Of a stretch of 64,000 nucleotides of DNA, positions 30,311 through 59,465 are shown piece by piece. Under the pieces are notes generated by a model that worked only from the letters and a program-made list of their open reading frames with translations, was not told where the DNA came from and made no database searches. A program made the translations under genes and the position numbers. The first letter of the stretch is position 1. Every line of letters starts with the position of its first letter. This DNA comes from Bacillota bacterium (GTDB lineage: Bacteria > Bacillota > Sulfobacillia > DUMF01), in NCBI GenBank assembly GCA_012840015.1, contig DUMF01000029.1, positions 62,001 through 126,000 on the forward strand, given 5' to 3'.

Positions 30311-30326
30311 TTGGAGGATCGCCCAG

Positions 30327-41588: not shown

Positions 41589-41936
41589 ATGAGGGCGCTG
41601 AATTTTTATTCATCTATTTACCAGGCCAACCTGGTAGTAAGAAGCAAGCGCTGTACTATCAGGCTGGGCGACAAACGCCAGAAGTATAGTGAAGGCGACA
41701 TCGTGATGGTGACCTACGGAGATCGCTTCAAGCCCCGCAAACGGATTTTCAATGCCGTGATCGATCGAGTGATAGTGAAGACGATCGGAGAGTTGACCCA
41801 AGAAGACTTGCTAGCTGAGAATCCCGACATGAAGACCCCCAAAGACGCCCTCGATTTCCTCAAGCGGATTTACGAAGTTCCGATGGACGAAAACACATTG
41901 GTTACGGTGATTTATTTTTCAGAGGTGATGGACTAA
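41589..41936 (+). CDS. ASCH/PUA-like domain protein of unknown function
   Basis: A 115-residue protein. The part RCTIRLGDKRQKYSEGDIVMVTYGDR followed by RIFNAVIDRVIVKTIGELTQEDL resembles ASCH domains, a PUA-like fold thought to bind RNA or nucleotides. It ends DALDFLKRIYEVPMDENTLVTVIYFSEV. ATG start with GGGGGGAA. It follows the epimerase by 13 bases and shares the operon, but nothing in its sequence ties it to acyl-CoA chemistry. Confidence 0.65.
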   Translation: MRALNFYSSIYQANLVVRSKRCTIRLGDKRQKYSEGDIVMVTYGDRFKPRKRIFNAVIDRVIVKTIGELTQEDLLAENPDMKTPKDALDFLKRIYEVPMDENTLVTVIYFSEVMD

Positions 41937-41957
41937 CTTAACGGGAGGAGGTACCCA

Positions 41958-42152
41958 ATGGGAGACACCGGAACCGTCGTAGAGTACTTCTGCCCGGCCT
42001 GCGGTACCCAAGGTATGATGATAGTGGGCATAGAGCCGGGCGGGGGTGAAGGCAGGCTGGGTAGTAGTATGCGGTGTCCCAACTGCGGCAAGACCGTGCT
42101 GGTAGGTAAGAGCTCCCAGAAGAGGCCCGAGGAGACCGTTGTGGCACCTTAG
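41958..42152 (+). CDS. Small zinc-ribbon protein
   Basis: A 64-residue protein with two CxxC knuckles (CPACG and CPNCG) about 28 residues apart, a zinc ribbon. The stretch between is glycine-rich (GIEPGGGEGRLGSS). The role is unknown; similar small ribbons bind nucleic acid or proteins. ATG start after GGGAGGAGG. It is the last gene before a strong terminator. Confidence 0.75.
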   Translation: MGDTGTVVEYFCPACGTQGMMIVGIEPGGGEGRLGSSMRCPNCGKTVLVGKSSQKRPEETVVAP

Positions 42153-42171
42153 AACCACACCTCTAAGAGCG

Positions 42172-42210
42172 GAGAGGAGGGGGTAAAAGCCCCCTCCTCT
42201 CTTGCGTTTT
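42172..42210 (+). terminator. Strong rho-independent terminator before mraZ
   Basis: GAGAGGAGGGGG (42172-42183) and CCCCCTCCTCTC (42190-42201) form a perfect 12-bp stem with loop TAAAAG, followed by TTGCGTTTT. It separates the oxidoreductase-mutase operon from the dcw cluster. Confidence 0.9.
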
Positions 42211-42250
42211 GTTACAAATAGCAGAAGGATATTGCAAAGCGATGGAGAAT

Positions 42251-42290
42251 AGTGAACCAGAGTGGGTTATAGTGGTGTAGAGTGGAGTAA
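42251..42290 (+). promoter_or_regulatory. MraZ-box-like operator: four 10-bp direct repeats
   Basis: The 40 bases ending six before the mraZ ATG read as four consecutive 10-mers, each beginning AGTG. The last three fit AGTGGnnTAn exactly (AGTGGGTTAT, AGTGGTGTAG, AGTGGAGTAA), and the first (AGTGAACCAG) is degenerate. In Escherichia coli MraZ binds three TGGGN repeats spaced by five bases, the same 10-base period. This is therefore probably the autoregulatory MraZ operator. I could not place a convincing -35/-10 pair. Confidence 0.78.
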
Positions 42291-42296
42291 ATTCCC

Positions 42297-42728
42297 ATGC
42301 TCATTGGCGAGTACCAACACACTATAGACGAAAAGGGACGGCTTACAGTGCCAGCCAAGCTGAGGGATGCTCTTGGAGATCGGTTCATCCTAACGAAAGG
42401 ACTGGACGGCTGCCTTTTCGGCTACCCGGTTGAAGAATGGAAGCAGCTCGAGGCCAAGTTGAGAGAGCTGCCCCTGACGAAGGCGGACGTCAGGGCTTTC
42501 GTAAGGCTTTTGCTCGCCGGAGCGAGCGAATGCGAGCTCGACAGGCAAGGGAGATTCGTCCTGCCCAACAACTTGAGGGCGCACGCAGACATAGACAAGG
42601 ACGTCATCATAACAGGGGTTTCCACCCGGATAGAGATCTGGAGCAGGCAACGCTGGGAAGAATATAGAGATAAAGCTGAAAAGAACTTCGAAGGCGTTGC
42701 GGAGGGAATTGAAGGACTTGGGTTCTAG
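42297..42728 (+). CDS. mraZ: Transcriptional regulator MraZ
   Basis: An AbrB-fold regulator, forming rings, that represses its own dcw operon. The 143 residues contain two tandem MraZ domains: GEYQHTIDEKGRLTVPAKLRD at the N-terminus and the second half with ECELDRQGRFVLPNNLRAHA. ATG start. The four 10-bp repeats just upstream are its likely binding site. It is the first gene of the cluster, after a terminator. Confidence 0.96.
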   Translation: MLIGEYQHTIDEKGRLTVPAKLRDALGDRFILTKGLDGCLFGYPVEEWKQLEAKLRELPLTKADVRAFVRLLLAGASECELDRQGRFVLPNNLRAHADIDKDVIITGVSTRIEIWSRQRWEEYRDKAEKNFEGVAEGIEGLGF

Positions 42729-43635
42729 GGAGAGGACCTTCTCGCACATCCCCGTGATGGTGGAAGAAGCTATGCATTATCTCGCTCCACGCGATGGAGG
42801 CTTGTATTTCGATTGCACAGCTGGAGCGGGAGGCCACTCCAAAGAAATACTCAGGCGTAGTGCCCCGAATGGTAAAGTTGTATGCATCGATACTGATCCC
42901 TGTGCGATCGAAGTACTGCGCTCTGCTTTAGGCGAGTTCGGCGAGAGAGCTGTCGTGGTGCAGGCGAACTTCACCGAACTAGCTCAGGTTGCGGACAGGC
43001 TCGGCATAAGCCAAACAGATGGGATTCTATTCGATCTGGGCGTGAGCTCGCTGCAACTGGATTTGCGGGAGCGCGGGTTCTCGTACAGTATGGATGCTCC
43101 TCTCGATATGAGGATGAATCCACAGCAGGTTTTGACTGCTCGGACCCTGGTGAACGAGCTCGACGAGGCTGAACTGGCAAGGATCTTCTGCGAGTATGGG
43201 GAAGAAAGGTGGGGCGGTCGGATCGCTCGGTTCATTGTGGAACGACGCGCGAGGAAGACCATAGAGACTACCGGAGAGTTGGTGGACGTGATTAAGGCGG
43301 CGATCCCGGCATCGGCTCGTCGCAAGGGGCCTCACCCGGCCAAGCGGGTTTTCCAAGCTTTACGTATAGCTGTAAACGGCGAACTGGAAGCCTTGAGACA
43401 AGTACTGCCGGTTGCTACGTCCATTTTGAATTGCGGGGGACGGATCGTAGTAATCTCATTTCACTCCCTGGAAGATAGGATCGTCAAGGACTGGTTCAAG
43501 AACTGTGCGGAGTTGTGCGTGCTTACAAAGAAACCGATAAGACCCGCTGCCGATGAGATTACGGCCAACCCGAGGTGCAGGAGCGCCAAGCTGAGGGCGG
43601 CCGAACGGGTTCTAGCTGTGGTGGAGGGTGAATAA
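42718..43635 (+). CDS. rsmH: 16S rRNA (cytosine(1402)-N(4))-methyltransferase
   Basis: Methylates N4 of C1402 in the ribosomal P site (also called MraW). It shows HIPVMVEEAM, the AdoMet site DCTAGAGGHSKEIL, FDLGVSSLQLD, RGFSYSMDAPLDMRM and the C-terminal VISFHSLEDRIVK. The ORF track starts at TTG 42697. GGAGGGA at 42701-42707 suits the TTG at 42718 (305 residues), so I use that, with some doubt. It overlaps the end of mraZ. Confidence 0.95.
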   Translation: MGSRERTFSHIPVMVEEAMHYLAPRDGGLYFDCTAGAGGHSKEILRRSAPNGKVVCIDTDPCAIEVLRSALGEFGERAVVVQANFTELAQVADRLGISQTDGILFDLGVSSLQLDLRERGFSYSMDAPLDMRMNPQQVLTARTLVNELDEAELARIFCEYGEERWGGRIARFIVERRARKTIETTGELVDVIKAAIPASARRKGPHPAKRVFQALRIAVNGELEALRQVLPVATSILNCGGRIVVISFHSLEDRIVKDWFKNCAELCVLTKKPIRPAADEITANPRCRSAKLRAAERVLAVVEGE

Positions 43636-43636
43636 C

Positions 43637-44071
43637 ATGTTTTGTCAGAAGAAGTACAGGCGCAGAAGGAAAAGCGCACGTGGCCCCCTGGTGGGGCTTA
43701 CCTTTCTCGTAATAATGGTGACTGGGCTTGCGCTGGGTGTGGGAGTACAGTACACCGCCCTAGCTCGTGCCGAGATCTCGCTCGACTCGGCACGCTCCCG
43801 TTTGCAGGAGCTTAAACGCCAGGCAGACTGGCTGGAGACCCAACTCGCCAGTCTGACATCTCCGGCACGCATAGAACAAGTGGCCACTACGAAGCTCGGT
43901 ATGGTGCGGCCCACAGAGGTCAGGGAAATAGAAAAACCGGTGCCACCCGTTGTGGCTGCGTCTCTGGTCCCGCCTGCTGAGGACCGTAACACAGAGGGGG
44001 GCGTACTGCAAAAGCTCGTTGACAGGTTGTCGCAGGGCATTCAACGGGCGCAAGCCAAACCTAGGAAATGA
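43637..44071 (+). CDS. ftsL: Cell division protein FtsL-like
   Basis: A bitopic septal protein. A very basic cytoplasmic tail (KKYRRRRKSARG) precedes one membrane helix (about residues 20-40) and an extracellular coiled coil (SRLQELKRQADWLETQLASL), followed by the conserved ARIEQVATTKLGMVRPTE, then a proline-rich tail. Position between rsmH and a class B PBP is that of ftsL. Sequence conservation in the family is low, so position carries weight. ATG 43637 has GGAGGG eight bases upstream. Confidence 0.86.
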   Translation: MFCQKKYRRRRKSARGPLVGLTFLVIMVTGLALGVGVQYTALARAEISLDSARSRLQELKRQADWLETQLASLTSPARIEQVATTKLGMVRPTEVREIEKPVPPVVAASLVPPAEDRNTEGGVLQKLVDRLSQGIQRAQAKPRK

Positions 44072-44085
44072 AAGGGCTGGTTTGA

Positions 44086-46218
44086 TTGCTGGCTGTAACC
44101 GGCGTAAAGACGAAGAAAAGAATTCTGGCCCTTTTCATAGGTTCGACGGCTTTCCTGTTCGCGTTGGTAGTGAGAGTTGGTTACCTGCAGTTCATTAGGG
44201 GGCCGGAACTGTCGGCCCAGGCGTTGGAAATCCGCACTTTGGACGTTCCGGTGCTGCCGCAGCGGGGCATGATTTGCGATCGAAATGGCAAGGAGCTTGC
44301 GGTCAGTATCGACACGGAATCCGTTTATGCGTTTCCGTCACAGGTAAAGCAGCCCGAAGAAACGGCACGCACGCTCTCTGCCATTTTGGGAATGAGCTAT
44401 GAGGAAGTCTACGAAAGAATAACGCGTAACACGTATTTCGTTTGGTTGAAACGCCAGGTAGATGCTGAGACTGCAAGCAAAGTAAGGTCTCTGAAACTCA
44501 GCGGCATCAACCTCACCCCGGAGCCAAAGCGGTTTTATCCGAACGGAACGTTGGCTGCTCACGTGCTGGGCATATCGGGTATAGATAACCAGGGGCTCGA
44601 GGGAATTGAGGCTGAGTACGATGCGGACCTCAGGGGTACACCGGGCCGGATAGTCGTGGAGACCGATGCGATCGGCCGGGAAGTACCAGATGCTCTCCAC
44701 GCGTACGAGCAACCAAAGCCGGGCAAGACACTCTTCCTGACTATAGACGAAATCCTCCAGCATGTAGCCGAAAGGGAATTGGACCGTGCCATGCTCGAAA
44801 CCAAGGCCAAGGGTGGAACGGTCATACTCATGGACCCGCGTAACGGCGAGATCCTCGCTCTTGCGATTAAGCCCGATTTTGACCCCAACCACTACGATAA
44901 ATACCCGAACGAGAATCGAAGGATTAGTGCGATCTCCGATACGTACCCCCCGGGCTCCACATTCAAGCCGGTGACTGCTGCAGCAGCTTTAGAGGAAGGC
45001 GTCACAAGTACCAAGGATAGGTTTTTCTGCGGGGGTAGCATCAATGTACCTGGTGCTACACTGCATTGCTGGGTTCCCGAAGGCCACGGTTCGCAATCCT
45101 TTGACGAGGTGATCATGAACTCCTGTAACGTGGGATTTATCACGATGGGATTGCGGCTTGGAGCGGAGAAGTTCTATAAATATCTGGAGGCCTTCGGTTT
45201 CACGGAACCCACGGGGATAGACCTTCCGGGCGAAGGGATAGGCATCCTTCCAGATAAGTCTGATGTTAAGCCAGTGGACGTGGCCGTGATGAGTTTCGGC
45301 CAGACTCTTACGGTTACGCCAATGCAACTGATACGTGCGATAGGCGCCATCGCCAACGGCGGAATACTTGTGCAGCCGCACCTCTTGAAGGAGATGCGCG
45401 ATCAAGATGGCACTGTGGTACGGAGATGGCAAGGGAGTGAAAGACGGGCTATTTCGGCGGGTACCGCTGCGGAGCTCAGACGATCCATGGAACTGGTTGT
45501 CCAAAAAGGCACGGGGCGGCAGGCTTTTGTAGAAGGTTACAAGCTTGCTGGCAAGACTGGCACCTCTAATAAAGTGATCGGTGGGACGATAGCCACTGGA
45601 AAGTACGTGGCTTCGTTCGTGGGATTTGCACCCTCTGACGATCCACGTATCGTTGGACTCGTAATTCTGGACGAACCGCAAGGGGCTTATTACGGCGGGC
45701 AGATCGCTGCCCCACTATTCTCCAGAGTAATGGCTGATGTGTTGCGTTACCTGGAAGTGCCTGCTAGACCAGATATCAGGAAGCCAGTTCAGCCATGGGA
45801 GACGCCCGTGAAGCCTGACGCCAACGGCGTGGAACGCTTGATGGAGATAGAGGTGCCGTCGATACTGTTCGATGACGTGGAGACGGCTCGCCGGAAGGTG
45901 GTCTCGTTAGGGCTGACTTTGACGATAGAAGGGTCCGGCAGTTACATAGTTTCCCAGGTGCCTGCTGCGGGAGCGTTGGTGGCATCGGGTACCACTGTTA
46001 TCGCGAAGCTGGGGGAACCTCCTGTCTCTCCTGGGAAGGTAATCGTACCAAACTTAAAGGGCAGGACCATGAAAGAGGCTATGCAACTACTAGGGGAACG
46101 AAAGCTCACCATGGAAGCGGAGGGCAGTGGAATCGCAGTAAGACAGGAGCCTGAACCTGGAACAGCTGTGCCTGCAGGCAGTAGTATCCGGGTTTGGTTT
46201 GAATATCCAAAGGAGTGA
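44086..46218 (+). CDS. spoVD: Class B penicillin-binding protein with PASTA domains (SpoVD/PBP2B type)
   Basis: A monofunctional transpeptidase for septal or spore-cortex peptidoglycan. One N-terminal membrane helix (about residues 14-33) is followed by the dimerisation domain (RGMICDRNGKELAVS) and the transpeptidase domain with active-site serine in PGSTFKP (about 291), SCN (about 346) and KTGT (about 489). Two PASTA repeats end the protein (PSILFDDVETARRKVVSLG and VPNLKGRTMKEAMQLL), as in SpoVD. Bacillus has pbpB and spoVD in tandem. Here there is one gene, so it may serve both vegetative division and sporulation. TTG start. Confidence 0.93.
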   Translation: MLAVTGVKTKKRILALFIGSTAFLFALVVRVGYLQFIRGPELSAQALEIRTLDVPVLPQRGMICDRNGKELAVSIDTESVYAFPSQVKQPEETARTLSAILGMSYEEVYERITRNTYFVWLKRQVDAETASKVRSLKLSGINLTPEPKRFYPNGTLAAHVLGISGIDNQGLEGIEAEYDADLRGTPGRIVVETDAIGREVPDALHAYEQPKPGKTLFLTIDEILQHVAERELDRAMLETKAKGGTVILMDPRNGEILALAIKPDFDPNHYDKYPNENRRISAISDTYPPGSTFKPVTAAAALEEGVTSTKDRFFCGGSINVPGATLHCWVPEGHGSQSFDEVIMNSCNVGFITMGLRLGAEKFYKYLEAFGFTEPTGIDLPGEGIGILPDKSDVKPVDVAVMSFGQTLTVTPMQLIRAIGAIANGGILVQPHLLKEMRDQDGTVVRRWQGSERRAISAGTAAELRRSMELVVQKGTGRQAFVEGYKLAGKTGTSNKVIGGTIATGKYVASFVGFAPSDDPRIVGLVILDEPQGAYYGGQIAAPLFSRVMADVLRYLEVPARPDIRKPVQPWETPVKPDANGVERLMEIEVPSILFDDVETARRKVVSLGLTLTIEGSGSYIVSQVPAAGALVASGTTVIAKLGEPPVSPGKVIVPNLKGRTMKEAMQLLGERKLTMEAEGSGIAVRQEPEPGTAVPAGSSIRVWFEYPKE

Positions 46219-46248
46219 TCATAATATGCCTTGGAGGTTCGTGACTGC

Positions 46249-47706
46249 ATGAGACTCGCGGAACTGCTCAGCTGCTTGAACGAGCCAAACCTGCAGGTTG
46301 CGGATGTGGAGGTAACAGGGATAACATACGACTCTCGTCGGGTGAAGCCTGGCAACGTGTTCGTATGCATCAAGGGGTTCAGCCATGACGGCCATGCCTA
46401 CGCAAACGAGGCCGCCAGAAAAGGCGCGGTGGCCATCATAGCGGAGCGATCGATTCCGATCTTGGGAATCCCGGTGGTCCTTGTGGAGGATACCCGCCTC
46501 GCACTTTCCAAGTTGGCAGAGCGGTACTTCGATGAGCCCACAAGTAAAGTGAGACTGATCGGTGTCACGGGAACAAAGGGCAAGACTACCACGACATTTC
46601 TTATTAGGAGCATACTCCAAAAGGCTGGAATGAAGACGGGCTTAATGGGCACTGTCCTGAACATCGTGGGGGATGACGTACAGCCGGTCAGCCACACTAC
46701 CCCGGAGGCTCCGGAGCTTTGTGCTGCCATAGCCAAAATGGCGGCATCGGGCTGTACGCACGCGGTAATGGAAGTGTCTTCTCATGCGATAGCCTTGAAA
46801 AGGGTGGCGGGCTCTCGCTTTAAGGGAGCTGTGTTCACGAACCTCAGCCAGGACCACTTGGATTTTCACGGAAATATGGAAAGCTATTTTCAAGTGAAGG
46901 CGAGTTTTTTACGGGGGATTGCCACGGCCGCAGGCCCAGAGTATGTGGCTGTGAATGTGGATGATCCATATGGCGTGAGAATAGCGGGCGAGCTTTCGGA
47001 GTACGCGATAAGTTACGGAATCAGAGAGCCAGCTATGATCCGCGCCACCGATGTGGAGGTCAGTCCAAAGGGGACGAGGTTTAAAATAGGCTTCCCAGGC
47101 GGGCGAAGTGAGCGTGTCAAGGCGAAGCTGATCGGCATGTTCAACGTATACAACCTCCTAGCGGCTTCGTCCGTGAGCTTTAGGGAAGGCGTGAAAATAG
47201 AAGACATCGTAGAGGCCATCGAACTATTCGACGGCGTGCCGGGGAGATTTGAATCGATAGATGAGGGTCAGGATTTTACTGTAGTGGTCGATTATGCTCA
47301 CAGCCCTGCCAGCCTGGAGAACGTTTTGCTCACGGCGAGAGAATTGGGCCCGGAGAGGATCATCACTGTGTTCGGGTGCGGCGGAGACCGGGACCGAAGC
47401 AAGAGGCCAATCATGGGCGAAGTAGTATCTCGACTCAGTGACTATGCCATAGTAACCTCGGATAACCCGAGGAGTGAAGAGCCGGAAGAGATCATAAAAG
47501 AGATCCTGCCGGGCTTTCGTACATCTGCGTATGAGGTAATTCCGGATCGAGGGGAAGCCATATTCCGGGCGCTTAACATGGCAAAGTCTGGAGACTTCGT
47601 GCTGATCGCCGGCAAAGGGCACGAGACATACCAGGTGCTCAAAGACAGGGCCATTCATTTCGATGACAGGGAAGTCGCGCGGGATGTGCTGCGGAGGTTG
47701 AAATGA
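46249..47706 (+). CDS. murE: UDP-MurNAc-tripeptide synthetase MurE (meso-DAP type)
   Basis: Adds the third residue of the peptidoglycan stem peptide. It has the ATP loop GVTGTKGKTTTTFLI, TTPEAPEL and the substrate motif DNPR in TSDNPRSEEPEEI, which marks enzymes that add meso-diaminopimelate rather than lysine. Length is 485 from ATG 46249, which has TTGGAGG 11 bases upstream; the track start is six codons earlier. It overlaps murF by four bases. Confidence 0.95.
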   Translation: MRLAELLSCLNEPNLQVADVEVTGITYDSRRVKPGNVFVCIKGFSHDGHAYANEAARKGAVAIIAERSIPILGIPVVLVEDTRLALSKLAERYFDEPTSKVRLIGVTGTKGKTTTTFLIRSILQKAGMKTGLMGTVLNIVGDDVQPVSHTTPEAPELCAAIAKMAASGCTHAVMEVSSHAIALKRVAGSRFKGAVFTNLSQDHLDFHGNMESYFQVKASFLRGIATAAGPEYVAVNVDDPYGVRIAGELSEYAISYGIREPAMIRATDVEVSPKGTRFKIGFPGGRSERVKAKLIGMFNVYNLLAASSVSFREGVKIEDIVEAIELFDGVPGRFESIDEGQDFTVVVDYAHSPASLENVLLTARELGPERIITVFGCGGDRDRSKRPIMGEVVSRLSDYAIVTSDNPRSEEPEEIIKEILPGFRTSAYEVIPDRGEAIFRALNMAKSGDFVLIAGKGHETYQVLKDRAIHFDDREVARDVLRRLK

Positions 47707-49073
47707 GAGAGGGAGCCCTTTTCCATTTACAGGAAGCAGCTTCTGCGATTGGGGCGAAATTGAAGGGAGCAAGCAACCCCATTGTGATGGGAGTGGGCAT
47801 TGACTCAAGGCTCATCAAACCTGGTGAGCTTTTTGTAGCGCTACAAGGGGAACACACTGACGGCCACCTGCACGTAGCCGAAGCCTTTGCAAGAGGTGCA
47901 TCTGCTGCAATGGTTTGCAGGCGGGTGGAGGCAGAGGGGCCGCTGTTGGAAGTAGATGACTGTCTCAGAGGCCTTTCAGACCTAGCAAAGTGGCACAGGT
48001 CCAGGGTGAACCCTATGGTCATAGGGGTCACGGGTAGCGTGGGCAAGACCACTGTTAAAGAAATGATAGCTTCGATAGCTGCTACGAGGTTCAGGACGCT
48101 CAAATCGGAAGGGAATTTCAACACCGAAATCGGCCTGCCGCTCACTTTGCTGCGGTTGAAGCCCGCCACTGAAGTGGCAGTAGTTGAAATGGCCATGAGA
48201 GGGCTTGGCCAGATTCAGAAGCTTTGTGAGATAGCCAGGCCTTCGATTGGAGTGATCACGTCCATCGGGGAAACTCACCTAGAACTGCTCGGTTCTGTAG
48301 AGAATATAGCCAGGGCCAAGTGGGAACTGGTGGAAAGCCTTCCTGCGGACGGGTGGGCTATCCTCAATTGGGATGAACCCTGGCCAAGAAGGCTCGCTCC
48401 TTCGGCAAGGTGTAGGCTGGTACGTTTCGGGTTTAGCCCGGAAGCCGACGTAACAGCTAGGGATGTCCGGGACAGAGGGGAAGAAGGCATGAGCTATACT
48501 CTCGTGACCGTCAAGGGTGAAATCAATGTAAATCTACCCGTGAACGGCAAGCACATGGTCTGCAATTCCCTGGCAGGGGCGGCTTTCGGACTCATAGTAG
48601 GTCTGGAACTAGAGGAGATCCGTTTCGGACTGGAGCACTTTTCAAGTTCCAAAATGCGGTTGGAACTGCTTAGGATCGGAGACGTACTCGTGATAAACGA
48701 TGCATACAACGCCAATCCCAGTTCGATGAAGGCTGCTCTCGAAGTATTGAAGAGCATGGCGAAGGGTCGATGTATAGCTGTGCTTGGGGACATGCTGGAG
48801 CTGGGGACAAGGGCTGTGGAAGGTCATCGCGAGGTCGGGCAGAAGTGCGCGGAAGTGGGCATAGATATTCTCGTGGGAGTGGGCCCGCTTTCCAAAAACA
48901 TCACAGAAGCTGCGATAACATCTGGTGTCGGGGCATCTAGAGTCTACTGGTGCAAAGACAGAGCAGAAGCCAGCCAGTTACTCAGCTCCCTCGTTAAACC
49001 CGGAGATACCGTTTTGGTAAAAGGGTCGAGGGGTAGCAAGATGGAAGAAGTGATTGTCGGATTGAAGGGTTGA
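47703..49073 (+). CDS. murF: UDP-MurNAc-tripeptide:D-alanyl-D-alanine ligase
   Basis: Adds D-Ala-D-Ala to complete the pentapeptide precursor. The Mur ligase pattern is clear: GVGIDSRLIKPGELFVALQGEHTDGH, the ATP loop GVTGSVGKTTVKEM, NFNTEIGLPLTLL, NDAYNANPSSMKAAL and LGDMLELG. Length 456 is typical. ATG start overlaps the murE stop, and mraY follows after three bases. Confidence 0.96.
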   Translation: MREGALFHLQEAASAIGAKLKGASNPIVMGVGIDSRLIKPGELFVALQGEHTDGHLHVAEAFARGASAAMVCRRVEAEGPLLEVDDCLRGLSDLAKWHRSRVNPMVIGVTGSVGKTTVKEMIASIAATRFRTLKSEGNFNTEIGLPLTLLRLKPATEVAVVEMAMRGLGQIQKLCEIARPSIGVITSIGETHLELLGSVENIARAKWELVESLPADGWAILNWDEPWPRRLAPSARCRLVRFGFSPEADVTARDVRDRGEEGMSYTLVTVKGEINVNLPVNGKHMVCNSLAGAAFGLIVGLELEEIRFGLEHFSSSKMRLELLRIGDVLVINDAYNANPSSMKAALEVLKSMAKGRCIAVLGDMLELGTRAVEGHREVGQKCAEVGIDILVGVGPLSKNITEAAITSGVGASRVYWCKDRAEASQLLSSLVKPGDTVLVKGSRGSKMEEVIVGLKG

Positions 49074-49076
49074 GGA

Positions 49077-50063
49077 ATGCTTGGAGTTTTGGCTTTCGTC
49101 AGCGCGTTGCTCATAGTACTAATCTTAGGACCAGTGATGATCCCATCTCTCAAAAAGCTAAAGATGGGGCAAAAAGTCCGAGACGACGGACCGGCCAGTC
49201 ACAAGATAAAGGAAGGTACTCCTACTATGGGTGGCATCCTTATCCTGGCTGGTCTGGTACCTGCTTCGCTCTTTTTCGGCAGGCTGGCGTCGGAGCAAAG
49301 GATTCAGCCGGGTAAATTCGAGGTACTAATATCTTTACTCATATTGGTTTTGGGATATGCTGCAATGGGCTTTACCGACGATTATATCAAGGTCGTGCGA
49401 AGGCGGTCGTTGGGCTTACGAGCCAGGCAAAAGCTATTGTTGCAGACCCTCTTTGCAGCGGTAATTGTGATTACGGCGCAGCGACTTGGCATGGGAACCC
49501 ACGTGACGGTGCCGTATACTTTCACACAAATCGACCTGGGAGCGGCAGCGTATTCTATGTTTGCGTTGCTGGTCATCATCGGGAGCGCAAACGCAGTCAA
49601 CCTCACCGATGGCCTAGACGGGCTGGCTGCGGGTACGGCGGGGATAGCATTCGCCGTCTATTGGCTCATAGCTAGCGTGGCAGGCCGGACTGAACTGGCG
49701 ATTTTCTGCGGCTCGGCTGCCGGCGCGTGCTTCGGTTTCCTTAAATTCAATTCCTACCCGGCGAAAGTCTTCATGGGTGACACGGGATCCCTGGCTTTGG
49801 GGAGCGCACTTGGAGGTCTCGCTATACTTACTAAGACCGAACTGGTGCTCCCAATCGTCGGTTTCGTCTTCGTTATCGAGACGCTGTCGGTCATAATTCA
49901 AGTGCTGTCCTTCAGACTGACGGGCAGGAGAGTGTTCAGAATGAGCCCGCTCCATCACCATTTCGAGCTGTGTGGTTTCAAAGAAAAGTCAATCGTAACT
50001 TGCTTTTACGTAGTGGGCATATTAGCTGCTGTAGCAGCGTTAATGGGCCTAAGCGGCCTGTGA
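49077..50063 (+). CDS. mraY: Phospho-MurNAc-pentapeptide-transferase
   Basis: An integral membrane enzyme that attaches the UDP-MurNAc-pentapeptide to undecaprenyl phosphate, making lipid I. About ten hydrophobic segments, with the conserved GTPTMGGI, TDDYIKV, NLTDGLDGLAAG, MGDTGSLALG and PLHHHFEL. The 328 residues are normal. In most dcw clusters murD follows directly, but here the next gene is the SEDS protein, ten bases downstream. Confidence 0.96.
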   Translation: MLGVLAFVSALLIVLILGPVMIPSLKKLKMGQKVRDDGPASHKIKEGTPTMGGILILAGLVPASLFFGRLASEQRIQPGKFEVLISLLILVLGYAAMGFTDDYIKVVRRRSLGLRARQKLLLQTLFAAVIVITAQRLGMGTHVTVPYTFTQIDLGAAAYSMFALLVIIGSANAVNLTDGLDGLAAGTAGIAFAVYWLIASVAGRTELAIFCGSAAGACFGFLKFNSYPAKVFMGDTGSLALGSALGGLAILTKTELVLPIVGFVFVIETLSVIIQVLSFRLTGRRVFRMSPLHHHFELCGFKEKSIVTCFYVVGILAAVAALMGLSGL

Positions 50064-50072
50064 GGTGCCACC

Positions 50073-51173
50073 ATGAAACATCAAGGAAGGCCCGTCGATG
50101 GGTTGTTATATTCCGGTTGTATGGTGCTACTCGCCATAGGCATCGTAATGGTTTTCAGTGCCAGCTCAATCCGTGCAATGAAGAGCTACAACGACCCATA
50201 CTATTTTCTCAAGCGCCAACTGATATGGGCAGGCCTGGGGCTTATCATCATGACCGTGCTGGCCAACATACATTACGTTAGATTAAGGAAAATCGCTACG
50301 ACTGTAATGGCCATAAGCCTGCTCTTCTTGGTGCTCGTACTGGTGCCTGGTATAGGCAAGGTTATAAACGGATCACGACGGTGGATCGGCATCGGTCAAA
50401 TCGGATTCCAGCCTTCAGAGCTTTGTAAAGGCGTTTTCGTTTTGTTCATGGCAGCCAGCCTTTCCGAACGAGGGAAAGAGCTCAACAACCCTGTCAAAGG
50501 GCTGCTGCCGTATGTCCTGCTGATCGGCGTCATTTTCGGGCTGGTACTGAAAGAGCCAGACCTGGGTACCGGAATAGCTATCGCAGGGACTGGATTCATG
50601 TTGCTGTTCGCTGGCGGCATTGCTGTCTGGCAATTGACGGCGATCGGGGTAGTGGCTCTGCCCGTGCTTTGGCATGCCATAAACAGTGCTACGTATCGCA
50701 GGAACCGATTCCTCGCTTTTTTAAACCCGTGGGCCGACCCAACTGGTACCGGTTACCATATCATCCAGGGGCTATATGCTCTGGGATCGGGCGGGCCTTT
50801 CGGCTTGGGTTTCATGAGGAGCCGGCAAAAGTGGCTGTACTTACCAGAACCTCACACTGACTTCATCTTCGCAGTCATAGGCGAAGAGCTTGGATTCATT
50901 GGCTGCCTGGCAGTCATTTCCCTCTTTATGTTGATAGCGTGGAGAGGCTACAGGATATCGATGACAGCTCCAGACAGGTTTGGCAGCCTCCTGGCCGCAG
51001 GCATGACCACCATGATTATCCTGCAGGCTATCGTAAACATCGGCGTAGTTACGGCATCGCTGCCTGTCACAGGGATTCCCCTTCCGTTCATAAGTTCGGG
51101 CGGATCGTCTCTGATGACTAACCTGGCAGCTGTAGGGGTTCTGTTAAACATATCGAGATATACAGTGGAGTGA
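50073..51173 (+). CDS. ftsW: SEDS glycosyltransferase FtsW/SpoVE
   Basis: A polytopic peptidoglycan polymerase acting with the class B PBP at the septum. The 366 residues form about ten helices, with VFSASS, SRRWIGIGQIGFQPSEL, KEPDLGTGIAI, LFAGGI, HTDFIFAVIGEELGFIG and the C-terminal PLPFISSGGSSLMTNLAAVG. As for the PBP, the cluster carries one SEDS gene, so FtsW and SpoVE roles are not separable here. ATG start after GTGAGGTG. Confidence 0.93.
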   Translation: MKHQGRPVDGLLYSGCMVLLAIGIVMVFSASSIRAMKSYNDPYYFLKRQLIWAGLGLIIMTVLANIHYVRLRKIATTVMAISLLFLVLVLVPGIGKVINGSRRWIGIGQIGFQPSELCKGVFVLFMAASLSERGKELNNPVKGLLPYVLLIGVIFGLVLKEPDLGTGIAIAGTGFMLLFAGGIAVWQLTAIGVVALPVLWHAINSATYRRNRFLAFLNPWADPTGTGYHIIQGLYALGSGGPFGLGFMRSRQKWLYLPEPHTDFIFAVIGEELGFIGCLAVISLFMLIAWRGYRISMTAPDRFGSLLAAGMTTMIILQAIVNIGVVTASLPVTGIPLPFISSGGSSLMTNLAAVGVLLNISRYTVE

Positions 51174-51178
51174 CCCAG

Positions 51179-52303
51179 ATGAGGTATCTTATTTCTGGAG
51201 GGGGCACTGGTGGGCACATATATCCGGCGCTCGCCGTCTGTGAGGCATTAAACGAAGTTGACGAGAATTCCGAGGTGTTGTATGTCGGGACGCGTAACGG
51301 GCTTGAGTCTCGCATAGTACCTGCGTACGGTATACGCCTAGCTACGATACAGTCGGGTGGGATCGCAGGCAAGTCCCCGATAAAAGCCCTCAAGGGCGCT
51401 ATGGCGGCAACGAAAGGATTCGTCGAGAGCACGAAGACCGTGAGATCATTTCGCCCGGACGCGGCTCTGGGGACTGGCGGCTATGTCTCGGGCCCCGTCA
51501 TGCTGGCGTGCTGGCTGGCTGGGGTACCTATCGGTATCCAGGAGCAGAACGCGATGCCAGGCATGACCAATCGTATCTTGTCCAGGATAGCAAACCGAGT
51601 ATTCTTAGCTTTTCCCGGCTCGAAAAGATGTTTTCCGACCGGTGCCACCCGTAAAGCGGTTGTCCTGGGCAATCCGATCAGGAGGTCGATTGTGACGACT
51701 CCCAAGGGCGCGGGATACTGGGCTTTCGGCATTGAACCAGGATGGAGGACAGTCGTGGTTTTCGGCGGGAGCCGCGGAGCCGAGCCGCTCGTCTTCGGAG
51801 CGCTCGATGTGGCGAAGGAGTCTCGTCAGAGACGCGTAGTTTTCCTGGTAATAACGGGTAATGCCAGTTTCGAGCGGGCAAGGGCGATTGTGGAAACGAG
51901 TGGTATATCCTACGATCAAGGTGGAAACGTTATACTGAGACCATACGTGGAAGAAATGCATCTCGCCTACAGCGTCGCAGAACTGGTAGTTGCTAGGGCC
52001 GGAGGGTTGACTGTGTCTGAGCTGGCGGCACGTGGGATACCAAGTGTACTCGTCCCTTCTCCGTATGTTGCAGGACGACACCAAGAGCACAACGCGGCGG
52101 TGCTGGCAGAGAGCGGAGGGGCAGTTGTGGTGCACGAAGGCAAGCAATTCGTAGTCCAACTGAAACGGGTGCTTGACGATCTGCTCGGTGACGCGGAGAA
52201 GCTCAAGCAAATGGGAGAACGTGCTAAGCGCGTGGGAAAGCCTGATGCCGCCCGGGATATAGCTTGCCAGCTCTACGAAATGGCACGACGCTCTCATCGT
52301 TGA
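51179..52303 (+). CDS. murG: UDP-GlcNAc:undecaprenyl-PP-MurNAc-pentapeptide transferase MurG
   Basis: A peripheral membrane glycosyltransferase making lipid II. It shows the N-terminal glycine loop ISGGGTGGHIYPALAV, TGGYVSGPVMLA, QEQNAMPGMTNRIL, VFGGSRGAEPL and the UDP-GlcNAc site VARAGGLTVSELAARGIPSVLVPSPY. It has 374 residues from ATG 51179, which has GTGGAG eight bases upstream inside the ftsW end. murC follows after 38 bases. Confidence 0.96.
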   Translation: MRYLISGGGTGGHIYPALAVCEALNEVDENSEVLYVGTRNGLESRIVPAYGIRLATIQSGGIAGKSPIKALKGAMAATKGFVESTKTVRSFRPDAALGTGGYVSGPVMLACWLAGVPIGIQEQNAMPGMTNRILSRIANRVFLAFPGSKRCFPTGATRKAVVLGNPIRRSIVTTPKGAGYWAFGIEPGWRTVVVFGGSRGAEPLVFGALDVAKESRQRRVVFLVITGNASFERARAIVETSGISYDQGGNVILRPYVEEMHLAYSVAELVVARAGGLTVSELAARGIPSVLVPSPYVAGRHQEHNAAVLAESGGAVVVHEGKQFVVQLKRVLDDLLGDAEKLKQMGERAKRVGKPDAARDIACQLYEMARRSHR

Positions 52304-52341
52304 AGCATATCATGTAGTACCTGATTAGAGGTGGACTCATA

Positions 52342-53700
52342 TTGAATCATATCTACTTCATCGCGATCGGCGGCGCGGGTATGAGCGCCATCGCGCGGGT
52401 ACTTTTAGCCAAGGGATACAAGGTATCTGGGTCTGACGTCAAGGAAAACGAAGCAACGTCCAGGTTACGTAAGCTCGGTGCGACCATATATTTGGGACAT
52501 CGGGCCGAAAACCTTGAACCCACAGTGGACCTGATCGTCATATCGTCCGCCATACACGAGGACAACCCCGAGGTGCAGGAGGGCAGACGTAGGAATCTGC
52601 CTATTGTCCACCGGTCCGACGTTTTAGCCCAACTCCTAAACGGAGCACGCGGAGTCGCTGTAGCCGGGGCGCACGGCAAGACTACTACCACGTCCATGAT
52701 AGGTCTAGCATTTGAAGCAGCCGGCCTGCGGCCCACGATTCTCGTCGGAGGGGAAGTGCTGGATTTCGGTGGCAACGCTCTGGTTGGAAACGGGGACTAC
52801 CTGATTGCAGAAGCCGACGAAAGCGATGGATCTTTTCTCAAACTGAAAGCGAAGGTGGCAGTCGCCACAAATATCGATAACGATCACCTCGATTACTGGA
52901 AAACAACGGAGGCTTTGCGGCAAGCCTTTCGTGAGTACCTGCAAAATGTGAAGCCGGACGGCTACGCCGTAGTATGCAACGATGATGCCCTCCTCAGAGG
53001 GATGGTCCCCCAACTGCGCGTACCCGTAGTGACTTACGGTCTAACGCCTGGAGCAAAGGTGAGCGCAACGGAGATTCATCTCGATAGGTGGGGCTCGAAG
53101 TTTACGCTCTCCGTAGACGGATTACGTCTGAGACGCGTGAGCTTAAGCGTTCCCGGCCTACATAATGTCCAGAACTCCCTTGCGGCTTTTGCAGTTAGCC
53201 TCAGAGAAAGTTTACCCTTGGATAGGGTGCAGAGCGCCCTCGAAAATTTTAAGGGTGTCGATAGAAGGCTGCAAAAGATCGCCGAGGTAAATGGTATTAC
53301 AGTTATGGATGATTATGCTCATCACCCTACTGAGATCCAAGCCAGTCTGGCTGCGATACGGTTGGCGGGTTTCAACAAGGTGATCGTCATATTTCAGCCT
53401 CACAGATACTCCCGTACCAGGATACTGGCTGAACAGTTCGGTAAGGCATTCGATCAGGCGGACCTGGTAATCATAGCTCCCATTTACGCGGGACCAGGTG
53501 AGAGAGTCATTCCAGGCGTCAGCTCTAGGCTGATCGTGGATTCCATTCGAGAGCACGGGGGCCGGGTTTTATTTGCTGAGGACCTGGAGGAGATATGCAA
53601 GCTCGCGGTCGAGAACGCGGGGAAAGGTGACGTCATAGTGACGATGGGGGCCGGGGATGTATGGAAGGCGGGGAAGACCCTACAGGAGATGCTGCAGTAA
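52342..53700 (+). CDS. murC: UDP-N-acetylmuramate--L-alanine ligase
   Basis: Adds L-alanine to UDP-MurNAc, the first stem-peptide residue. It has HIYFIAIGGAGMSAIARVL, the ATP loop VAGAHGKTTTTSMIG, EADESDGSFL, DDYAHHPTEI and FQPHRYSRT. Length 452. TTG start eight bases after AGAGGTGG. It is a true MurC, not a MurC-MurB or MurC-MurD fusion, so the missing murB and murD are not explained here. Confidence 0.96.
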   Translation: MNHIYFIAIGGAGMSAIARVLLAKGYKVSGSDVKENEATSRLRKLGATIYLGHRAENLEPTVDLIVISSAIHEDNPEVQEGRRRNLPIVHRSDVLAQLLNGARGVAVAGAHGKTTTTSMIGLAFEAAGLRPTILVGGEVLDFGGNALVGNGDYLIAEADESDGSFLKLKAKVAVATNIDNDHLDYWKTTEALRQAFREYLQNVKPDGYAVVCNDDALLRGMVPQLRVPVVTYGLTPGAKVSATEIHLDRWGSKFTLSVDGLRLRRVSLSVPGLHNVQNSLAAFAVSLRESLPLDRVQSALENFKGVDRRLQKIAEVNGITVMDDYAHHPTEIQASLAAIRLAGFNKVIVIFQPHRYSRTRILAEQFGKAFDQADLVIIAPIYAGPGERVIPGVSSRLIVDSIREHGGRVLFAEDLEEICKLAVENAGKGDVIVTMGAGDVWKAGKTLQEMLQ

Positions 53701-53745
53701 CCGCTTACTGCAGACTCACGTAAGATGGGTTAGAGGTGCGCTCTC

Positions 53746-55014
53746 ATGGAACGTTATATTATTGCGGGCCCCAGAAAACTCGTGGGAAAAGTGCGAGCCA
53801 GCGGGGCGAAGAACGCCGTTTTGCCCGTCATGGCTGCAACGGTATTGACCAGGCATTGTTGTATCATACATGACGTGCCCTACCTGAAGGACGTATATGT
53901 CATGAGCGACATCCTTCAAACGCTGGGGTGTGCCGTCGAACTAATGAAGAGCTCTACCGAAGGGAATTCCCTGATCGTAGATCCTATCAGGGTTGTCTCC
54001 CATGAGGTCCCCGAAGAGCTCATGAGGCAAATGCGTTCCTCGATATTCCTGATGGGGCCCCTTCTAGCCAGGCTGGGCCGGGTTAAGGTGTCTTATCCTG
54101 GAGGGTGCGCCATAGGTCCAAGACCCATCGATCTGCATCTAAGAGGGCTCAGAGCGTTGGGGGCTACCATAACCGAAAGGGCCGGATACATTGTTGCAGA
54201 AACCGACGGTCTTCGTGGTTGCGAAATTCATTTAGACTTTCCGAGCGTCGGAGCGACGGAGAACATCATGATGGCGGCCGTGCTGGCAAAAGGTACTACT
54301 ATCATCCGCAATGCGGCCAAAGAACCCGAGATAACCGAACTGCAAAACTTCTTGAATGCTATGGGTGCCAAAGTTAAAGGCGCAGGGACAGACTTGATTC
54401 GGGTTGAAGGAGTCGACGAGTTGGGGCCTGCCGAACATACGGTGATCCCCGACAGAATCGAAGTAGGCACTTTCATGGTGGGCGCGGCCTTAACGGGCGG
54501 TTGCGTGGAAATTATTAACTGTATTCCCGAACATGTCCAGGCAGTGACTGCGAAGCTCAGGGAAGCTGGTGCCAAAGTCACCGAAGGGAAGAGTACCATA
54601 ACGGTTGAAGCTAATGATAGACCTCTTGCGATTGACATCAAGACCTTACCCTATCCTGGTTTTCCAACGGATATGCAGCCGCAGATCATGGCGCTCATGT
54701 GCATAGCCAATGGGACCAGCGTAATTACCGAAACCATTTTCGAAAGCCGCTTCAAGCATGCCGAGGAGTTCAGGCGAATGGGAGCGAAAATCCGAACGGA
54801 AGGGCGGGTAGCTGTCGTAAAAGGAGTCCCGTCTTTGTCCGGAGCTTCTGTAGAGGTTTCGGATCTTCGAGGCGGTGCGGCGCTTGTACTGGCTGGGATC
54901 GCGGCAGAAGGAGTGAGTGTAATCGAGGACATCCACCATATTGAACGTGGGTACGAAAAGTTTGACGAGAAACTACGGGGCTTGGGCGCAGCGATTGAAC
55001 GGTCATCTAGATAG
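53746..55014 (+). CDS. murA: UDP-N-acetylglucosamine 1-carboxyvinyltransferase
   Basis: The first committed step of peptidoglycan synthesis, the target of fosfomycin. SGAKNAVLPVMAA is near the N-terminus. The loop SYPGGCAIGPRPIDLH holds the catalytic cysteine, so fosfomycin sensitivity is expected from that residue alone. Other motifs are TENIMMAAVLAKG and YPGFPTDMQPQ. The 422 residues are standard. ATG start preceded by AGAGGTG. In many clusters murB would precede or follow this gene; here it does not. Confidence 0.96.
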   Translation: MERYIIAGPRKLVGKVRASGAKNAVLPVMAATVLTRHCCIIHDVPYLKDVYVMSDILQTLGCAVELMKSSTEGNSLIVDPIRVVSHEVPEELMRQMRSSIFLMGPLLARLGRVKVSYPGGCAIGPRPIDLHLRGLRALGATITERAGYIVAETDGLRGCEIHLDFPSVGATENIMMAAVLAKGTTIIRNAAKEPEITELQNFLNAMGAKVKGAGTDLIRVEGVDELGPAEHTVIPDRIEVGTFMVGAALTGGCVEIINCIPEHVQAVTAKLREAGAKVTEGKSTITVEANDRPLAIDIKTLPYPGFPTDMQPQIMALMCIANGTSVITETIFESRFKHAEEFRRMGAKIRTEGRVAVVKGVPSLSGASVEVSDLRGGAALVLAGIAAEGVSVIEDIHHIERGYEKFDEKLRGLGAAIERSSR

Positions 55015-55047
55015 GTCTGTGCTACAATGATATGAAAGTCAGCATTC

Positions 55048-55752
55048 ATGGCGGTGACGGGCATGCGCTGGTGGGTGTGGTTGGTGGCCCTTCTTTTGCT
55101 GTTAGGAAGTTGCTTTGCTTTCGTTAGCGATGCTATCTTTACCTGCCGGAATGTGGCCATTGAAGGGAACTCTCTCGTGAGTCGAGAAGAGGTTTTGGCA
55201 GCCTCCGGTCTGAGACCTGGGATGAATCTCCTGACCGTAGTGCCGCCGCTAGTACGCAATAGACTGTTGAGGTTGCCTGCTATCAAAGAGGCCACGGTAG
55301 AGCTGAAGTTGCCCGACACCATACGAATCGCCCTCAAGGAACGCAATAAATTTGCACTATACAACAGCGGGGGCAAATTCTTTTTTCTAGACGAAGTCGG
55401 GACAGTACTCGGGCAGACTCGAGCAGATGCCTCGTTACCGATCGTATCCTACGTTGGGGAAGAAGTAGTGCGAATAGGAGACCAACCACCTCCGGCTGTC
55501 AACGGCCTTCGGGTGATAAGGGCAACTGCGGAGCTAGCCCCACGGATATCGGAGGTGTCCTGCGATGCCTCTTACGGGATGAGGCTTTTCCTTCGCGAAG
55601 GTACTTGCGTAGAATTAGGACAAGCAGATAGTTCACTTGAAAGCAGGTGCAGAACGGCGGTGGAGGTAATCAATCACCTAAAAGATCTCTCTACGGTCAA
55701 GAAGATAGACGTCAGATTCTCAAAACCGGTGATCACGGGGGTGATCCCGTGA
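55048..55752 (+). CDS. ftsQ: Cell division protein FtsQ/DivIB
   Basis: A bitopic division protein: one membrane helix (about residues 7-28), a POTRA domain (CRNVAIEGNSLVSREEVLAASGLRPGMNLL) and a beta domain (IRIALKERNKFALYNSGGKFFFLDEVGTVL). Length 234. The stop overlaps the next gene's GTG. It forms the FtsQ-FtsL-FtsB type complex, for which ftsL lies 11 kb upstream in the same cluster. Confidence 0.9.
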   Translation: MAVTGMRWWVWLVALLLLLGSCFAFVSDAIFTCRNVAIEGNSLVSREEVLAASGLRPGMNLLTVVPPLVRNRLLRLPAIKEATVELKLPDTIRIALKERNKFALYNSGGKFFFLDEVGTVLGQTRADASLPIVSYVGEEVVRIGDQPPPAVNGLRVIRATAELAPRISEVSCDASYGMRLFLREGTCVELGQADSSLESRCRTAVEVINHLKDLSTVKKIDVRFSKPVITGVIP

Positions 55753-56465
55753 AGGGAATCGGGAACAAGTCAGCTCTGGCTTTTGTATGTTTACTCCTAG
55801 GCATCATGATTTCTATTCAGTTCAGGGTCCAAAAGGACATAAAGAAATCCAACGCTATGCAGCGTACCGAAGAGCTTGTGGTTAGGCTTCAAGACTCTGA
55901 AAAGCAGCGTGAGGCGCTCGAGAGGGAAGTGAGCGACTTACGCAACAGGATTGCCGAGATGGCCAGCGGGGCAGATACCATAAAAGCCCTATCGGCTGAG
56001 CTCGAAAACATGCGATTGGCACTGGGGCTTGTGGATCTAAAGGGCCCTGGCGTGACGGTGCTTATGGAGGATTCAAAGAGGGCTGCAAAGCCTGGTGATG
56101 ACCCGAACGCTTTCCTCATACACGATGACGACGTGCTAAGGGTGATAAACGAACTGCGGGCATCCGGAGCAGAAGCCATCTCTGTAAATGGGCAAAGAGT
56201 AATGGCTCGCACCGAGGTGAGGTGCGTGGGCCCTACCATTTCAGTGAACGGAGTCAGATTATCTCCGCCAATCGTGATCCACGCCATTGGAAACGCTGAT
56301 ACAATGGAAGCTGGCCTAAAAATGAGGGGCGGTGTTATAGACGCAGTGGCCGTTTGGGGGATAGAAGTCAAGGTCAAGAAGGAGACGGAAGTGATTGTCC
56401 CTGCATATAAGGGGAGCCTGAAGTTCGAATACGCTATGCCCGTCAAGAAAGCTGGTGATCAATGA
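55749..56465 (+). CDS. DUF881 family protein (YlxW/YlxX-like)
   Basis: A 238-residue membrane-anchored protein: one helix (about residues 7-22), an extracellular coiled coil (about 40-90), then the DUF881 domain (GPGVTVLMEDS, HDDDVLRVINELRASGAEAISVNGQRV, PPIVIHAIGN). The function is unknown; such genes lie beside divIB and sbp in many Gram-positive dcw clusters. The GTG at 55749 gives the family's start. The ORF track began 34 codons upstream inside ftsQ. Confidence 0.9.
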   Translation: MKGIGNKSALAFVCLLLGIMISIQFRVQKDIKKSNAMQRTEELVVRLQDSEKQREALEREVSDLRNRIAEMASGADTIKALSAELENMRLALGLVDLKGPGVTVLMEDSKRAAKPGDDPNAFLIHDDDVLRVINELRASGAEAISVNGQRVMARTEVRCVGPTISVNGVRLSPPIVIHAIGNADTMEAGLKMRGGVIDAVAVWGIEVKVKKETEVIVPAYKGSLKFEYAMPVKKAGDQ

Positions 56466-56839
56466 TGTGGGTTGCAGCACTTGCTCTGGCTGCTGGGCTT
56501 GTGCTTGGCTTCAATTTGCCACTCCGCATTCCGATATCATATGCGAGATATCTTTCCATAGCCGTGCTCGCGGCACTTGACTCTGTGTTCGGGGGGCTCA
56601 GGGCTTCTCTCGAAGGGAATTTCGACAGCGCCGTTTTCGTCACCGGATTGATAGCCAATTCGGGTCTGGCAGCTGCTCTTACCTTCATTGGAGATACTCT
56701 AGGTGTAGAGCTGTATTATGCTGCACTCTTCGCTTTTGGCTATAGGGTTTTCCTCAATCTTGGCGTTATACGCAGAGACCTGCTAAGGATCTACTACCAG
56801 GGAAGACAGCCTCGAGAAATGAGCTCCCAATGGAGGTGA
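56462..56839 (+). CDS. sbp: Small basic membrane protein (Sbp/DUF1290 family)
   Basis: A 125-residue protein with three to four hydrophobic segments and the family signature GFNLPLRIPISYARYLSIAVLAALDSVFGGLRASLEGNFD. Named sbp in Bacillus, where it sits next to ftsA, as here (four bases before ftsA). Function unknown, presumably linked to the division membrane complex. ATG start overlaps the DUF881 stop. Confidence 0.9.
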   Translation: MMWVAALALAAGLVLGFNLPLRIPISYARYLSIAVLAALDSVFGGLRASLEGNFDSAVFVTGLIANSGLAAALTFIGDTLGVELYYAALFAFGYRVFLNLGVIRRDLLRIYYQGRQPREMSSQWR

Positions 56840-56843
56840 GAAC

Positions 56844-58076
56844 TTGGCCCGGCGGCGATATGTCACGGGTTTAGACTTGGGTAGCAGTAAGGTGTCGGCC
56901 GTTGTGGCGGAGCTGCGAGAAGACGGACTCCCAGTCATAGCTGGGGTGGGGACGAGCACCTCTGCTGGGATGAAGAGGGGCGTGGTGGTCGACATCGAGC
57001 GCACTGTTAAGAGCATCGCAGAAGCAGTGGAGAGGGCGGAGCGGATGTCTGGCGTTCCGGTCAAATCCGCTTACATAAACATATCTGGTGCGCACGTGGG
57101 GACGTGCAACAACAGAGGGGTGATTGCCGTCTCCAGAGAGGACAAGGAGATCACCCAGGAAGACGTGGATCGGGTGATGGAAGCTGCCAGGGTGATTAAT
57201 ATACCCTCCGATAGAGAGATCGTGCACGTTTTGCCTCGCCAGTTTGTGGTAGACGGTTATGAGGGCGTACGGGACCCGGTAGGCATGATGGGGGTCCGAC
57301 TGGAAGTGGAGGCTCAAATTGTAACCGGTGCGGTGACATCGATTCAGAACGTGCTTCGCAGCGTTTACCGAGCGGGATTGCAGGTGGACGATGTGGTACT
57401 GGCGGCACTAGCTTCGGGCGAAGCGGTACTCCAACCTGCAGAGAAAGAACTTGGGGTGGTCGTTGTCGATATTGGAGGTGGCACGACCGATCTGGCTATC
57501 TTTGAGCAGGGCAGCCTCTGGTATGCTGGGGTGATTCCAATCGGTGGAGAACACATAACCAACGATCTGGCGGTAGGTTTACGCACGCCTATCAACCAAG
57601 CAGAGAGCGTGAAGGTACGGTACGGGAAGGCTCTCGCTTCTCTGGTCCCCGATGACGCATATATCACTGTGACGGGGGTGGGGGGGTCTTCCAAGAGGGA
57701 GGCCTCTCAGAAGACGGTATGTACCATCATCGAGGCACGTGCTCAGGAGATTGCGGAAATGATCGGCGCCGAAATCCAGAAGTCAGGCTATTCACGGATC
57801 ATCCCGGGGGGGCTGGTAGTGACAGGTGGGTGTTCTGAATTGCCAGGGTTCATCGATCTCCTTTCGGAGAGGCTCGATATGCCCGCGAGGAAGGGAACAC
57901 CCGGCGGCGTCGCCGGATTAGTGGATGCCGCTTCTTCGCCATCCCTGGCGTGCGCCGTGGGACTGGTGATTTTCGCCAGCAAACAGCTTGGATCGAAGGA
58001 GCCCGGAGGGGAAGTTCTCTCCGAAGATGAATCCTTTATGGGACGGGTAGTTAATTTTTTCAGAAGTCTCTTCTGA
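56844..58076 (+). CDS. ftsA: Cell division protein FtsA
   Basis: An actin-like ATPase that tethers FtsZ to the membrane. It has the phosphate-1 motif [14 protein letters not shown], phosphate-2 [15 protein letters not shown] and adenosine motif [11 protein letters not shown], plus a C-terminal amphipathic helix ([11 protein letters not shown]) that serves as the membrane anchor. Length 410. TTG start after GGAGGTGAG. It is 22 bases upstream of ftsZ. Confidence 0.96.
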
Positions 58077-58098
58077 GAGTGGGGGGCGGAGTCCAAAA

Positions 58099-59148
58099 AT
58101 GGGGGACAAAGAGGAAAGATATGCTTCCTTGAGAGTTATCGGAGTTGGTGGTGGGGGATGTAACGCGGTTAACCGGATGATTGCGGCAGGCCTCAAGGGA
58201 GTTGATTTTATCGCCGTAAATACAGACGTGCAGGCTCTTCAGCGTTCGGCTGCCCCCACAAAGGTACAGGTGGGCTCTAACCTTACGAGAGGGTTGGGTG
58301 CAGGGGCCAATCCTGAGATAGGCCAAAAGGCGGCTGAAGAAAGCAAGGAGGAACTAATTAAGTATCTCAAAGGTGCGGATATGGTTTTCATTACCGCAGG
58401 GATGGGCGGGGGTACTGGCACGGGAGGAGATCCCGTGATAGCCGAACTGGCGAAAGAATCGGGAGCGCTGACGGTTGGCGTTGTGACCAAACCTTTCTCT
58501 TTTGAAGGGCGACGCAGAATGAGCGTGGCGGAAAAAGGGATCAGTACCTTACGCGAGAAAGTGGACACGCTCATAGTGATTCCTAATGACAGGCTTTTGC
58601 AGGTGGTAGATAAGAAGACCCCTATCCTAGAGGCGTTCAGAATCGCCGACGATGTGCTACGACAGGGGGTCCAAGGCATTTCGGACCTGATTGCTGTCCC
58701 TGGATTGATAAACCTGGATTTTGCAGACGTTCGCACGATCATGAAAGACACGGGCTCGGCTCTCATGGGCATCGGGGTGGCTTCTGGAGAGAATCGTTCG
58801 GTGGAGGCTGCCAAAGCAGCCATATCGAGCCCCCTGCTTGAAACCTCTGTCGAGGGTGCCAAAGGTGTGCTGCTGAATATAACGGGCGGCAGCGACCTGG
58901 GACTGTTCGAAGTCAACGAGGCAGCAGAAGTAGTCGCGCAAGCGTGCGATCCGGAGGCGAATATCATTTTCGGTGCTGTAATTGACGAGGAACTTAAAGA
59001 TGAAGTGCGTGTCACCGTAATAGCGACTGGCTTTACCGGCCAGCGAGCTCCCAGGATGCTGGAGCAACTTAAAGAGCTGGAGGTAGTTCCCAGAGGCGGA
59101 AGTGAACTGGATATCCCAGCTTTCTTGAGGCGGAGGAGCAGCAACTAG
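58099..59148 (+). CDS. ftsZ: Cell division protein FtsZ
   Basis: A tubulin-like GTPase forming the Z ring. It contains [13 protein letters not shown], the tubulin signature GGGTGTG (about residues 103-109), FDF-like [12 protein letters not shown], and the C-terminal interaction peptide [10 protein letters not shown]. Directly after the signature this protein reads GDP where most FtsZ have AAP. Length 349. ATG start. spoIIGA-sigE-sigG, which follow ftsZ in many spore formers, are absent here. Confidence 0.97.
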
Positions 59149-59205
59149 GCTTTCTGCAGTATGTGCCGCGTGCCTTCATATAATGTTGCGAAGGGGGGCG
59201 CGCAA

Positions 59206-59442: not shown

Positions 59443-59465
59443 TTTTGTCTGGAGGACGCTAGGAC

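Follow-up and report, generated by a model that had tools for sequence, protein, structure and literature searches.

The DNA analysed here, a window of 64,000 nucleotides from a Bacillota bacterium of the class Sulfobacillia, carries on its forward strand a dcw cluster headed by mraZ (42297..42728). The product of mraZ is a transcription factor of 143 amino acids (PF02381, E 7.7e-44) with two DxxxR motifs, DEKGR and DRQGR, and is related to proteins with solved structures (1n0e, 9qlr, 9qlg and 9sx6). The second gene of the operon, rsmH (mraW; 42697..43635, forward strand, PF01795), overlaps the end of mraZ, and the rest of the cluster (43628..59148, forward strand) runs through an ftsL-like gene, a gene for a PASTA-domain penicillin-binding protein, murE, murF and mraY, and extends to ftsA and ftsZ. 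Pfam is the basis for the ftsL-like gene, the penicillin-binding protein, ftsA and ftsZ, while murE, murF, mraY and the other mur genes were assigned from ORF translations and gene order. The spoIIGA-sigE-sigG genes are absent after ftsZ (59149-59465). How is this operon transcribed? The upstream unit is ended by a strong intrinsic terminator (42171..42202, forward strand) with a 14-pair stem and a T-rich tail, and mraZ therefore needs its own promoter.

Directly in front of mraZ, positions 42251-42290 read AGTGAACCAG AGTGGGTTAT AGTGGTGTAG AGTGGAGTAA on the forward strand. The last three decamers, at 42261..42270, 42271..42280 and 42281..42290 (referred to here as boxes 1, 2 and 3), are perfect AGTGG copies, backed by the sequence itself, shuffles, a genome scan and relatives, and they are preceded by a weak copy in the same phase (42251..42260). 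Six bases, 42291-42296, separate the array from the ATG at 42297. An earlier note on this DNA had described three exact decamers and a degenerate copy, head to tail and ending six bases before the ATG, and re-reading the sequence agrees with it. The features that mark an MraZ operator are found together: direct repeats with a GTG(G) core and a period of about 10 bases, a position upstream of mraZ at the head of the dcw cluster, and conservation together with mraZ in relatives. The pattern is also rare. The three-copy pattern had 0 matches across 100 shuffles of the 64-kb window, and a pattern scan of the genome (2,037,039 bases) returned the site before mraZ as its sole perfect GTGG triplet at period 10. 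Elsewhere in the genome the best partial match, one with two boxes, lies inside tpiA. A wider MraZ regulon was considered and rejected, as one-mismatch matches in the genome, apart from one overlapping the present site, are about as many as those of a reversed-pattern control.

Are the repeats kept in relatives? The earlier note had proposed to compare upstream regions of mraZ, and this was done for a class sample of 114 species, with the window's own species among them, for 80 named loci, nearly all from Bacillota, and for a phylum sample of 89 loci. At least three GTGG at an exact period of 10 precede mraZ at 91 of the 114 class loci, against 0.02 expected from shuffles, and the same holds for 79/80 named loci and 82/89 loci of the phylum sample. 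The repeats are thus conserved across class and phylum, and E. coli K-12 has them as well. The earlier idea that the operator is special to this lineage finds no support. Within the class the box chain is present in 33 of 40 families. In one family (f48) the two loci L131 and L144 have their chain about 195 bases upstream of mraZ, so the class count is a lower bound; in another (f24), the search over 200 bases upstream of mraZ showed no box chain at loci L009 and L024. At further class loci (L132, L154, L201, L213 and others) mraZ has a long GC-rich leader, the boxes standing about 85-150 bases ahead of the gene. When 136 class genomes were scanned, perfect AGTGG triplets numbered 53, spread over 48 genomes (3 matches for a control pattern), and comparison with mraZ coordinates placed all 53 within about 200 bases upstream of mraZ. 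What is conserved is not quite the unit first proposed. AGTGGnnTAn was rejected as the conserved unit: its 'nnTAn' part is not kept, and the consensus box of both class and phylum is AAAGTGGnGn. The boxes of the window retain GTGG and the preceding A, with G, T and G two bases before GTGG where most relatives have A.

Conservation before mraZ at an exact period, with no other perfect sites, strongly supports the proposal of the earlier note that the repeats are an MraZ operator, although regulators besides MraZ could in principle use them. Could the array instead be a G-rich ribosome-binding or RNA feature, and not a DNA operator at all? The only Shine-Dalgarno candidate, GGAG at 42284-42287, does lie within box 3, 9 bases before the ATG, and from its position is likely to serve in ribosome binding. 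Across the class, however, the last box stands anywhere from 4 to 147 bases before the start codon and the 10-base period stays exact, which makes such a reading very improbable; an RNA element was also discarded because no Rfam family reaches threshold.

A second question concerns the number of boxes. The earlier note had treated all four copies alike, but it is three that are supported; class relatives do not keep the first copy as a box. A search for a fourth upstream box gave three of four matches in 6/80 in the class, against 8.2 for an out-of-phase control, and in the phylum there was likewise no clear conservation over such a control. A conserved fourth upstream box was rejected because it does not rise above the control, so three boxes can be called certain and the fourth, AGTGAACCAG, possible. 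A variant in which all four boxes are functional and the MraZ ring touches each of them falls somewhat short of an even chance: the AGTG at 42251 is in exact phase, at least four perfect boxes occur at 11/114 class loci, and four repeats are reported in Burkholderia cenocepacia (PMC7761207), whereas the lack of conservation just described speaks against it.

Which promoter reads into this operator? SigH is a sigma factor that serves when cells pass from growth to sporulation. Between the terminator and the repeats, positions 42224-42250 read GAAGGATAT-TGCAAAGCGAT-GGAGAAT, a perfect fit to the sigma-H consensus RMAGGRWWW-N11/12-RRMGAAW used for Listeria (PMC4754846). The -35 element, GAAGGATAT (42224..42232, forward strand), is followed after 11 bases by the -10 element GGAGAAT (42244..42250, forward strand), and both are conserved in relatives. 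The shorter pattern RNAGGA-N17/18-GAAT precedes mraZ at 66/114 class loci and 62/89 phylum loci, with fewer than one in shuffles and 0 on the reverse strand upstream of mraZ in class and phylum loci. A search open to spacings of 15 to 19 gave 17 and 18 alone (class loci: 62 and 10; phylum loci: 50 and 13), and in 105 aligned promoters the columns that the search did not constrain match the sigma-H consensus, with A/C before AGGA at 0.89 and before GAAT at 0.96. The full Listeria consensus is strictly met at 10/114 class and 22/89 phylum loci (0.07 and 0.2 in shuffles). The shorter pattern, taken strictly, is seen in 24 of 40 class families and is missing at 48/114 class and 27/89 phylum loci; other promoters may serve at some of these. 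It seems most likely that SigH is used at the mraZ promoter, a reading taken from the motif, and motif matches alone are no proof of sigma-factor use. A literature search short of most subscription papers found nothing linking SigH and mraZ, and no priority is claimed.

Might a housekeeping sigma factor read the promoter of a real MraZ operator, with the AGGA...GAAT elements unused or serving as a second promoter? Cells require the dcw genes all through growth, a phase in which SigH is usually not very active. At 58/80 named loci, mostly from Enterococcus, Vagococcus, Tetragenococcus and relatives (L039-L110), the same MraZ boxes lie over an extended -10, GTGGTAGACT, of housekeeping appearance. 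For the window this alternative is nonetheless unlikely: no sigma-70-like promoter (TTGACA-N16/18-TATAAT-like hexamers) occurs within 41900-42400, on which ground a sigma-70 (SigA) promoter was rejected, and the SigH signature stands at fixed spacing directly before the repeats at most class and phylum loci. Since in the Enterococcus group the boxes overlap a housekeeping-looking -10, the operator is the constant element and the class of promoter varies.

The organism itself has a gene for a SigH orthologue (402 bits against a cut-off of 208), as have 126 of the 136 class genomes. Spo0A is encoded too, and another contig (L127) carries what we read as a spoIIGA-sigE-like gene pair. With SigH, Spo0A and this pair in the genome, the organism probably forms spores. 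A strict SigH pattern has 27 sites in the genome against 4 for a control, most of them outside long ORFs. One of the 27, a perfect SigH-type pattern, sits 29 bases before minC (G000:C2:34877-34902, L231), so minC may be a second division gene under SigH in this genome. Elsewhere in the window (29627-31415), a sigma-factor-like ORF of 227 amino acids followed by a membrane protein resembles, by eye, a SigI-RsgI pair.

How do promoter and boxes fit together? In the window, the first perfect GTGG begins after 12 bases from the final T of GAAT. Across 115 loci the gap between GAAT and the first box varies, from 1 to 16 bases apart from one exception, and its values gather near 3, 8 and 12-13; a fixed distance was therefore dropped. 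Judged from the -10 element, transcription would start at about 42258-42260, within the first repeat, and the leader of about 38 bases would then consist almost wholly of boxes. The earlier suggestion that the repeats overlap the place of ribosome binding or transcription start thus holds by inference, with GGAG in the last repeat and the predicted start in the first.

The best explanation, held with good confidence, is an MraZ operator laid over a SigH-type promoter, at which bound MraZ would block SigH polymerase and repress the dcw operon. From sequence and by analogy, the following steps can be proposed. SigH polymerase would start the dcw operon here. Each turn of the helix would present one AAAGTGG box on the same face of the DNA, and neighbouring subunits of the MraZ ring would bind these boxes in succession. 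The operator lies just downstream of the SigH-type promoter, covering the presumed transcription start and ribosome-binding site, and since it covers the presumed start, bound MraZ would block SigH RNA polymerase there, lowering expression of mraZ, rsmH and the downstream division genes. By analogy, MraZ might also block the start of translation of its own operon.

On balance, we lean slightly towards a broader view, in which a SigH promoter whose start site carries the MraZ operator would drive the whole division and cell-wall operon in a large part of Bacillota; this layout would date far back in the phylum, and Lactobacillales would have exchanged the SigH promoter for a housekeeping one while keeping the boxes. 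If so, MraZ would restrain a promoter of septation genes that is tied to the transition phase or to sporulation. In many spore formers a growth-phase sigma factor would set the timing of the dcw cluster, with MraZ as feedback, should the SigH promoter be real. Loss of mraZ in E. coli has no apparent phenotype (PMC8475190), and a real SigH promoter would offer a clear setting in which to seek one for MraZ.

The operator itself is a further case of an already known kind, and confirms the uniformity of the MraZ switch between E. coli and deep-branching Bacillota. The mraZ leader of E. coli K-12 reads ctttcAGTGGGAAATTGTGGGGCAAAGTGGGAATAAGGGGTGAGGCTGGC-ATG, with the repeats AGTGGGAAATTGTGGGGCAAAGTGGG; like the window it has a GTGG core, an exact 10-base period and three perfect copies directly before mraZ and the dcw cluster. 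Of the earlier comparison with E. coli, the shared 10-base period stands and the differing core does not, since K-12 also reads GTGG: the contrast of TGGGN with GTGG is a mere difference in how the repeat is written. The promoter does differ, as that of K-12 looks by eye to be of sigma-70 type (TTGACA in the leader), compared with the SigH type in the window. For Mollicutes, PMC8475190, citing Fisunov et al. 2016, gives direct repeats of AAAGTG[T/G] as the MraZ site and, for M. genitalium, places the sole MraZ site before mraZ. Window and Mollicutes share an AAAGTG-type box, repeated before mraZ at a single chromosomal site, although the boxes of the window are AxAGTGG, with G, T or G two bases before GTGG in place of the usual A. 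MraZ of B. cenocepacia binds a fragment with four 7-base repeats and 3-base spacers, and in its promoter PmraBc the repeats lie downstream of the -10, over the transcription start (PMC7761207). The window likewise has 7+3 base repeats past the -10 and over the start, a predicted one in this case, but with three strong copies and one weak in place of four, and with another type of promoter. As for the promoter, GAAGGATAT-N11-GGAGAAT perfectly matches the consensus of the Listeria sigma-H promoters, whose listed members include competence genes and lytG (PMC4754846), whereas the target in the window is a dcw operon with MraZ boxes at its start.
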